In this document: piece by piece, positions 3,620-33,223 of the stretch
How positions within the stretch are numbered: position 1 is the first letter of the stretch
Layout: the number at the start of each line of letters is the position of its first letter
Source: an uncultured Clostridia bacterium
GTDB lineage: Bacteria; Bacillota; Clostridia; TANB77; CAG-508
Reading direction: 5' to 3'
NCBI GenBank assembly: GCA_944391575.1
Contig: CALXUC010000012.1
Span: 1 to 43,430 of the forward strand
DNA length: 43,430 nt
Program-made: the position numbers and the translations under genes
The notes under the pieces: generated by a model
Database searches by the model: none
The model's input: the letters and a program-made list of their open reading frames with translations, nothing else
Told to the model about the DNA's origin: nothing

Positions 3620-4633
3620 TTAATTATTTAATTCTGCAATTCCTAAGTGCTTATATGCTAAAGGAGTTACTTCTCTACCTCTTGGAGTTCTTACTAAAAA
3701 GCCTAGCTGAATTAAATATGGCTCATATACATCTTCTATAGTTTCAGTCTCTTCTCCTATAGTTACAGCTATAGCTTCTAAACCTACAGGACCTCCTGCA
3801 TAATTTACTATTATTGTTTTTAATAATTTTCTATCTATTTCATCTAACCCTAAATCATCAATATCTAATCTATTTAATGCTATTTTTGCTATTTCTTTTG
3901 TAATACCACCATCACCTAATACGCTTGCATAATCTCTTACTCTTTTTAATAATCTATTTGCAATTCTAGGCGTACCGCGAGAACGTCTTGCTATTTCAAC
4001 AGCGCCTTCATTATCTATTGATACTTTTAAAATATCTGCAGAACGTTTTACTATTGTTGTTAAGTCTTCTGTATTATATAATTCTAATCTGCTAATAATA
4101 CCAAACCTATCTCGTAATGGCGTAGTTAAAGAACCGGCCTTTGTAGTTGCACCTATCAAAGTAAATTTAGGTAAATCAAGCCTAATAGATCTAGCACTTG
4201 GGCCTTTCCCTATTATAATATCTAAACTATAATCTTCCAAAGCAGGATATAAAATTTCTTCAACACTCTTATTTAATCTATGAATTTCATCTATAAATAA
4301 AACATCATTTTCTGACAAATTTGTTAATAATGCAGCTAAATCCCCTGGTTTCTCTATTGCAGGGCCTGATGTTATTTTAATATTAGAATTCATTTCGTTA
4401 GCTATAATATTTGATAATGTAGTTTTACCAAGTCCCGGAGGTCCATATAATAATACGTGATCTAAAGGTTCGTTTCTCTTCTTAGCTGCTTCAATATATA
4501 TTTTAATACTATCTTTTACTTTATTTTGACCAATATATTCGTTTAAAAATTTTGGTCTTAATGAAGTTTCAATTATTTCTTCTGATTGGTTTTGAAGACT
4601 TGGTTGTAAAATATTATCTAAGTTATCTTGCAT
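3620..4633 (-). CDS. ruvB: Holliday junction branch-migration ATPase RuvB
   Basis: 337 aa, the usual RuvB length. The AAA+ core has Walker A GPPGLGKT at 64-71, Walker B with LFIDEIHRL at about 112-120, a sensor region ([11 protein letters not shown]), and the C-terminal winged-helix DNA-binding domain with [12 protein letters not shown] and [20 protein letters not shown]. RuvB forms hexamers that drive branch migration with RuvA, and RuvC resolves the junction. Unlike many Firmicutes, no ruvA or queA flanks it here: ruvB instead leads an operon of unknown genes and a glycosyltransferase. A likely promoter lies at 4683-4711. Confidence 0.97.
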
Positions 4634-4711: not shown

Positions 4712-4740
4712 GAAATTTTATTAAACAAAAATAATACTTG

Positions 4741-4890
4741 GTTACAGTTCAGTAAAAATTTTATAAAAGCTTGATATATAGCTATTTTTAGTCAAAACAT
4801 AGCTAGGGCGCCACAATCCGGGTCTTGACTTGCAAATAGCTATATATCAAGTTTTTGCAAAAGTTATATGTTCTCTTACTGAATTGTAAC
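4741..4890. mobile_element. Palindromic MITE-like element, copy A, with 8-bp target duplication
   Basis: A 150-bp non-coding element. Outer inverted repeats are GTTACAGTTCAGTAA (4741-4755) and TTACTGAATTGTAAC (4876-4890), one mismatch. An inner hairpin pairs 4770-4787 with 4834-4851, and inside it AGTCAA pairs with TTGACT around a conserved loop containing AATCCGGGTC. Perfect direct repeats AATACTTG flank it at 4733-4740 and 4891-4898, as left by a DDE-type transposase. No ORF is inside, so movement would need a transposase supplied in trans. It lies in the gene-free interval 4634-5166, which otherwise holds copy B, the ruvB promoter and the rplQ terminator. Confidence 0.85.
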
Positions 4891-4956
4891 AATACTTGTA
4901 TTATATCACAAAAACATATGTTTGTAAATAATTTTAAGAAAATTTTGTAATTTTTT

Positions 4957-5097
4957 GTTACAATTCAGGATATACTTGCTAGAAGCTTGATATATAGCTA
5001 TTTTTAGTCAAAACATAGCTAGGGTGACACAATCCGGGTCTTGACTTGCAAATAGCTATATATCAAGCTTCTACTTAAAGGTCTGCTGAATTATTAC
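4957..5097. mobile_element. Palindromic MITE-like element, copy B, with 8-bp target duplication
   Basis: A 141-bp element with left end GTTACAATTCAG (4957-4968) and right end CTGAATTATTAC (5086-5097). The inner hairpin is perfect over 24 bp: 4980-5003 pairs with 5050-5073. The core is almost identical to copy A. Perfect direct repeats AATTTTTT at 4949-4956 and 5098-5105 flank it. Two copies within 360 bp, each with its own different 8-bp duplication, show separate insertions rather than one tandem duplication. The right duplication lies about 20 nt from the rplQ terminator T-run. Confidence 0.85.
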
Positions 5098-5124
5098 AAT
5101 TTTTTATAATTAAAAGGTTACAAT

Positions 5125-5166: not shown

Positions 5167-5703
5167 TTAAACTAATTGTAATATTACTTTTTCAGCTCCA
5201 TCGCCGAATCTTCTACCTATTCTAACTATTTTTGTATAGCCACCTACTCTACCTTCATATTTAGGTGCTATTTCGTTAAATAATTTTGATGGTAAATCTA
5301 CTTTATTTCCTTCAGAATCAGATACTTTATTTAATTTTCTCATTATTTTTCTTCTAGCATTTAATCTTGAAGGCATATCTTTTTGTCTTTTCTCCATTTT
5401 TTCTTCTTTTACGACTCTAAGATATTCTTTACCATTTTTGCTTGTTACTTTTTCAGTTTCTTTATTACCTTTAGCATCTAATTTAGCTTTTACTACTTTA
5501 ACTTCTACTTCTTCAAAGTTTTTAGCTTCTTTTACTGCTAAAGCGATTATGCTATCAGCAATGGCTTTTACTTCTTTAGCTCTTGCTAAAGTTGTTTCTA
5601 TTTTGCCATGTAATATTAAATCTGTTGTTTGTGATTTCAACATTGCTAATCTAATATCAGTTGTTCTGCCTAATTTTCTATCAGTTGCCATTTTATTATT
5701 CAC
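5167..5703 (-). CDS. rplQ: 50S ribosomal protein L17 with a charged internal insertion
   Basis: 178 aa versus about 112-125 for most bacterial L17. The N-terminal block (DRKLGRTTDIRLAMLKSQTT then IETTLARAKEVKAIAD) and C-terminal block (LFNEIAPKYEGRVGGYTKIVRIG, ending EKVILQLV) are standard. Between them a stretch of roughly 50-60 Lys/Glu-rich residues replaces the short linker. L17 sits near the exit of the large-subunit polypeptide tunnel. It is the last gene of the alpha operon, 18 nt after rpoA. RBS AGGTG precedes the start; the encoded MATDRKLG four residues later is the alternative start. Confidence 0.95.
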   Translation of the reverse strand: MNNKMATDRKLGRTTDIRLAMLKSQTTDLILHGKIETTLARAKEVKAIADSIIALAVKEAKNFEEVEVKVVKAKLDAKGNKETEKVTSKNGKEYLRVVKEEKMEKRQKDMPSRLNARRKIMRKLNKVSDSEGNKVDLPSKLFNEIAPKYEGRVGGYTKIVRIGRRFGDGAEKVILQLV

Positions 5704-9636: not shown

Positions 9637-9894
9637 TTTATATAATTTTTTAAGTGAACTATCAAATAAAATTTTCGTAGAATTTCTAAATATTTTTTAC
9701 GTATTTATTATATTAATGTGTCGTGAGATATAGCTATTTTTAGTCAAAACATAGCTGGGGCGACACAATCCGGGTCTTGACTTGCAAATAGCTATATCTC
9801 ACGACTTTAATAAAAAATTTCCATAAAAAATATTAAGAACTTCTAACTCCGCTTTATTATGAATAGTTTCACTTTGCAAAATTTATATTTAAAA
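9637..9894. mobile_element. Palindromic element, copy C, with long divergent arms
   Basis: The core hairpin (9720-9739 pairing perfectly with 9786-9805) carries the same conserved loop as copies A and B, but the flanking sequence differs. Instead of GTTACAATTCAG ends, imperfect inverted arms extend far outward: TAGAATTTCTAAATATTTTT on the left (from about 9679) matches the complement of the right side up to about 9847, and AAGTGAACTATC (from 9652) matches the complement of 9863-9874. The pairing seems to continue to about 9637/9894. It fills nearly all of the 363-nt gene-free gap between adk and map. No convincing target duplication is visible. Confidence 0.65.
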
Positions 9895-33082: not shown

Positions 33083-33223
33083 GTAATGATTCAAAATATA
33101 CTTGCTAAAAGCTTAATATACAGCTATTTTTAGTCAAAACATAGCTTAAGCATAACAATCCAGGTCTTGACTTGCAAATAGCTGTATATTAAGCTTTTAT
33201 TTAAATATCTGTTGAGTTGTTAC
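33083..33223. mobile_element. Palindromic MITE-like element, copy D (diverged)
   Basis: 141 bp, the same length as copy B, with decayed ends GTAATGATTCA and GTTGAGTTGTTAC. The inner arms 33107-33129 and 33176-33198 remain perfectly complementary over 23 bp although three positions differ from copy B. The core loop is altered (TTAAGCATAAC, CCAGGTC). No exact target duplication is left, consistent with an older insertion. It occupies most of the 382-nt interval upstream of thyX; the rest holds only thyX's RBS and AT-rich DNA. Confidence 0.8.

Follow-up and report, generated by a model that had tools for sequence, protein, structure and literature searches.

Two short, related repeats, here called copies A and B, lie side by side between an open reading frame at 3620–4633, which we take to be ruvB, and a run of open reading frames starting at 5167, presumably a ribosomal-protein cluster. 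They raise the question of what these repeats are, what moved them to this place and what they carry at their center. The window, i.e. the whole stretch of DNA that was analyzed, comprises 43,430 nucleotides from the genome of an uncultured Clostridia bacterium. An earlier note on it had assigned the two copies to a MITE-like family, on the grounds that each stands between perfect 8-bp duplications of its own, that they have their ends and a core in common and that neither contains an open reading frame. For the two copies themselves, these observations hold: the duplications AATACTTG and AATTTTTT are perfect (Table 1), the common ends are of the general type GTTACARTTCAG, with two mismatches at the right end of copy B (CTGAATTATTAC), and the list of open reading frames in the window has none of 80 or more amino acids inside either copy. 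The common core is likewise present in both, but the note missed that it forms a hairpin whose stem covaries and whose loop is conserved, and that this hairpin is also found outside this MITE family. The window contains four such cores in total, of which the third and fourth had been overlooked.

Table 1. Positions in the window of the two MITE copies, their target site duplications and the hairpin modules
Feature	Position	Strand	Basis
Target site duplication AATACTTG, left of copy A	4733–4740		Sequence and genome-wide flank comparison
MITE copy A, 150 bp; terminal inverted repeats GTTACAGTTCAG / CTGAATTGTAAC	4741–4890	+	Sequence, BLAST, flank comparison
Hairpin module within copy A	4766–4859	+	Covariance model R1, 108.8 bits; fold z-score about -10
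Target site duplication AATACTTG, right of copy A	4891–4898		Sequence and flank comparison
Target site duplication AATTTTTT, left of copy B	4949–4956		Sequence and flank comparison
MITE copy B, 141 bp; terminal inverted repeats GTTACAATTCAG / CTGAATTATTAC	4957–5097	+	Sequence and flank comparison
Hairpin module within copy B	4982–5075	+	Covariance model R1, 109.3 bits
Target site duplication AATTTTTT, right of copy B	5098–5105		Sequence and flank comparison
Third hairpin copy, no adjoining terminal inverted repeat; stem CGTGAGATATAG / CTATATCTCACG, compensated relative to A and B	9718–9811	+	Covariance model R1 and sequence
Fourth hairpin copy, decayed MITE ends; stem CTTAATATACAG / CTGTATATTAAG	33108–33201	+	Covariance model R1 and sequence

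The note had held that an absence of further copies would speak against its proposal, but the source genome (1.84 Mb, 84 contigs) contains dozens of them. As a BLAST query, copy A yielded 86 matches there, part of them antisense owing to the palindrome, and the terminal inverted repeat (TIR), with at most one mismatch, occurs 167 times, compared with 8 times for a reversed control. The stretches around the matches were collected and the ends then paired. Among the 62 hairpin-bearing pairs with ends of type A (GTTACARTTCAG) in the source genome, which include a few alternative pairings of one copy, 26 are flanked by a perfect 8-bp duplication and 10 more match at seven of the eight positions, and none has a duplication longer than 8 bp. 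When the right flanks were shuffled among the copies, the mean was 0.58 perfect 8-bp matches, so that transposition with an 8-bp stagger, which the note had argued from two insertions, is now well supported. The duplicated 8-mers differ between targets and consist of A+T to 87%, and the lengths of the type A elements cluster at 141 and 150 bp. Copies A and B belong to a large family of non-autonomous DNA transposons (MITEs): they are short elements with terminal inverted repeats, their target duplication has a fixed length at differing targets, and the many dispersed copies have no coding capacity. Very short elements of about 42–54 bp, which comprise barely more than two TIRs, also occur (L305 1501–1554; L223 near 538–579).

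The core consists of a palindromic stem of about 20 bp and, inside it, a second stem of 5 bp, which together enclose a near-invariant loop (AACATAKCTRGGG...GGGTCTT). This conserved loop is about 30 nt long, and the apical loop AACATAKCTRGGGNNNNACAATCYGGGTCTT is almost unchanged among near relatives. Copies A and B fold as a long hairpin on both strands, with z-scores of about -8 to -10. An alignment of 38 diverse cores yields a structure of 23 pairs, 15 of which exhibit changes on both sides. In this alignment, 97.5% of the cells are paired, compared with 76.0% after shuffling, the number of double-change cells is 180 compared with 58, and the covariation score is 0.533 compared with 0.139; sliding the partner by one column lowers the score to 0.04–0.06 and the paired fraction to 31–33%. 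The compensation is visible even among the four copies in the window, where each of the stems CTTGATATATAG, CGTGAGATATAG and CTTAATATACAG is matched by an arm of its own. At L263 and L265, the hairpin arms are extended as near-perfect palindromes tens of bases past the usual stem.

Compensatory base changes in stems, by which structured RNAs are recognized, are thus found here, but template switching can yield the same pattern. Covariation alone is therefore no proof of selection on an RNA, because template switching makes the arms identical. Between the arms of a quasipalindrome, this process equalizes the arms and can invert the spacer, as described in the available parts of two reports (PMC7202029, PMC8604942). 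Single copies with exchanged halves or with the loop flipped relative to the ends are found at L022, L029, L067 and L069, a pattern that recombination or template switching at the stem would be expected to produce. An RNA stem under selection usually shows an excess of G-U pairs. In about 3,450 pairs of the outer helix, to which the count was restricted after an earlier one that included the internal loop had been discarded, about 98% are Watson-Crick pairs, and the mispairs comprise 32 G-T and 21 A-C, i.e. no significant wobble preference; the lack of a clear G-U excess would rather count against a selected RNA stem.

With the loop as a search pattern, 169 places were found in the source genome and matches in 4 of 291 other genomes of its family; in GTDB species genomes, there are at least 66 stretches, and among the matches listed all are titled uncultured Clostridia or Clostridium. 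The covariance model finds at least 150 hairpin copies in the source genome and matches 38 of 385 genomes of the order. Most of these belong to genus g9; the others are the source genome itself, three members of two further genera in its family and a single genome that belongs to a different family. In distant copies, the middle of the loop is altered (e.g. TCTACCATT instead of TGTAACAATCC), and AACATAKCT.GGG and GGGTCTT are mostly retained. Besides type A, several other carriers were found. Types B and C, with the ends GTTACARGATAATG and GTTACTAGTTAATG, have 8-bp duplications of their own (perfect over 8 bp in 16 of 48 pairs, compared with 0.41 in the control), type D ends in GTTACAATTCACAG, and type E features REP-like inverted palindromes around GGGACGTTCCTTTTTGGC. 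At two contig starts of genome G313 (L224, L227), a GTTACTAGTTAATG end precedes another repeat, which contains CGACATG...GTTCGCGCGCCAATTTTACGC and has a related copy in L228.

In one genome (the CALYBE records), two or three hairpins follow one another head to tail at distances of about 92–112 bp (three units 96 bp apart at L166 2055–2340; further arrays at L115 6079–6266, L116 5221–5501 and L168 6946–7153). Other hairpins are solitary and often occupy the space from a stop codon to the ribosome-binding site of the next gene. Downstream of argS, for instance, there is a hairpin in genome G448 and none in G471, the next gene being the same in both; further pairs of filled and empty sites are L145 with L139 and L340, L252 with L130, and L257 with L014. 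Judging from such alignments, in which no duplication is evident at the lone insertions, lone copies are gained or lost between related genomes.

Since the hairpin is carried by several mobile elements and also occurs by itself between genes of related gut bacteria, it appears to be a portable module rather than mere filler. We consider it probable, as an explanation of the whole, that these are MITEs moved in trans and that the hairpin which they carry, with its conserved loop, is a portable module that might have a role in mRNA. The copies would be moved by a transposase, probably of the DDE type, whose cuts are staggered by 8 bp. Their center would be a module that exists also outside this MITE family and that entered several element types, probably when recombination or template switching took place at its palindromic stems. 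Template switching between the arms plus selection for pairing would most likely maintain the near-perfect stems, and selection the loop. Alternatively, this could be an ordinary MITE family, with the hairpin as the inherited core of one ancestral MITE; the differing ends would then have arisen by drift and transposase switching, lone copies would be old MITEs with decayed ends, and the conservation of the loop would reflect recent common ancestry. Types A to D indeed all start with GTTAC, types A and B/C both yield 8-bp duplications, the fourth copy in the window has decayed ends, and the spread is patchy and mostly confined to one genus. Nevertheless, we regard such an origin as rather unlikely, given that the lone copies of G237 combine widely different stems with an almost constant loop, that the REP-like carriers of type E have unrelated ends and that even G331, which belongs to another family of the order, retains parts of the loop.

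If the carriers are MITEs with a portable module, the hairpin may most likely act on the sense strand as an intercistronic mRNA element in processing, stability or protein binding, and such a function might render the insertion of a carrier tolerable or useful. Its orientation was compared with the strand of both flanking genes, which were called simply from open reading frames. Outside the source genome, 27 lone copies lie on the same strand and 4 on the opposite one (p = 3e-5), and for type B/C copies the numbers are 24 and 3 (p = 5e-5); these p-values are optimistic, because related copies are not independent. The source genome's own type A copies exhibit no such sense bias (15 on the same and 23 on the opposite strand, not significant), which counts against a role in mRNA. 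This indifference to orientation, the very high copy number and the almost exclusively Watson-Crick stems with G-T not significantly above A-C would suit a DNA-level element, namely a cruciform or single-stranded hairpin that is bound by a nucleoid, replication or recombination protein and has the conserved loop as its recognition site. However, the strong sense-strand bias of lone and type B/C copies in other species and the many related genomes of the same genus in which the covariance model detects no hairpin make this unlikely.

For MITEs moved in trans, the transposase would most likely be encoded by a longer multi-copy element that ends in GTTACARTTCAGGTGGT and whose ends lie at contig breaks. 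Traced from TIRs without a hairpin, this element has left ends GTTACAGTTCAGGTGGTTAATAATAC on contigs C27, C33 and C39 and right ends GTTACAATTCAGGTGGTCTATAAG on C1, C25, C37 and C56, all of them at contig ends, where a collapsed repeat would be expected to lie. Joined by eye, its flanks match over 8 bp between C37 and C27 (TTATTAAA) and between C39 and C1 (TAATTTTG). A degraded copy of the left end also lies inside C1, adjoining an Rpn-like gene. The transposase gene with the same terminal repeats that the earlier note had suggested looking for was found neither in the stretches taken around matches in the source genome nor in those from relatives, which leaves only these ends: the interior of the longer element, and hence its transposase, was not found in the assembly, and in the loci compared no TIR pair 0.6–4 kb apart encloses an autonomous element. 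Candidates in relatives were rejected, since the genes inside a TIR pair of 1.6 kb in G312, which lie between two small elements, are ordinary ones (presumably PNP-like and GreA-like) and the contig ends of G313 lead to other repeats or host genes. The end GTTACARTTCAGGTGG occurs with one mismatch allowed in 24 of 390 genomes of the family and at 106 places in G230, and no transposase is found near it in the stretches examined from relatives. G230 (L326–L335) also has elements such as the one at L329 2399–2679, which is 281 bp long, ends in GTTACARTTCAGGTGG, is flanked by a near-perfect 8-bp duplication and has a long hairpin of a different kind as its core. Lastly, it is very unlikely that the cognate transposase is an Rpn-type (PD-(D/E)XK, PF12784) nuclease, of which the source genome (G000) has six genes, one of them degraded (on C30, C2, C8, C82, C22 and C1; L171–L176): a hairpin-less TIR lies directly upstream of the degraded gene (C1:65380), but the other five are not bracketed by such TIRs, and three of their upstream regions have a promoter region like that of the degraded copy without this TIR directly before it.

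Among known systems, the Correia elements of Neisseria have other termini, and we know of no conserved apical loop in them. They are likewise short MITEs, and their transcripts can be cleaved by RNase III (cited in the available part of PMC3049150). Among modular repeats that can fold and whose modules also occur alone, the BOX elements of Streptococcus pneumoniae appear to come closest. According to the same part of that report, these are also modular, MITE-like and strongly folded, with TIRs, a target duplication, more than 100 genomic copies and lone modules; they differ in their sequence and in their ends, which resemble ISSpn2, and no module common to several unrelated carriers is mentioned there (PMC3049150). 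MITEs of comparable size and duplication length are already known, as the available text of PMC10969869 shows for QMITE2 of Coxiella: these MITEs with 7–9 bp direct repeats agree in size class, inverted repeats, folded transcript and duplication length, whereas that text reports no covarying central module. Finally, the type E carriers resemble two inverted REP-like palindromes around a hairpin, as in REP/BIME and RAYT systems, but the hairpin itself is longer, has its conserved loop of about 30 nt and is not REP-like (PMC2817692, PMC3733652).

In Rfam 15, only a tRNA in the window matches at the gathering cut-off; the elements score weakly and far below it, and their weak matches (MIR6140, RUF6-5 and others) were set aside as reflecting AT-rich hairpins. 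Searches of plasmids, phages and viral contigs with the hairpin gave no match, and searches of open-access texts yielded no published description of it, a weak indication that it is new. The MITE itself is of an ordinary kind; what appears to be new is the shared hairpin with its conserved loop, whose function is putative. Tentatively, it appears possible that the hairpin is a new mobile or mobilizable nucleic-acid module, selected itself as an mRNA element or as a DNA hairpin, passed between unrelated small mobile elements and spreading in the chromosomes of one family of gut Clostridia. Bacterial MITEs are commonly regarded as decayed remnants. A hairpin that occurs on several element types as well as alone, with empty sister sites, makes the selection of cargo inside MITEs testable, and likewise the question of what reads the conserved loop. 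The covariance model with which the 38 genomes of the order were found is now available for the module.
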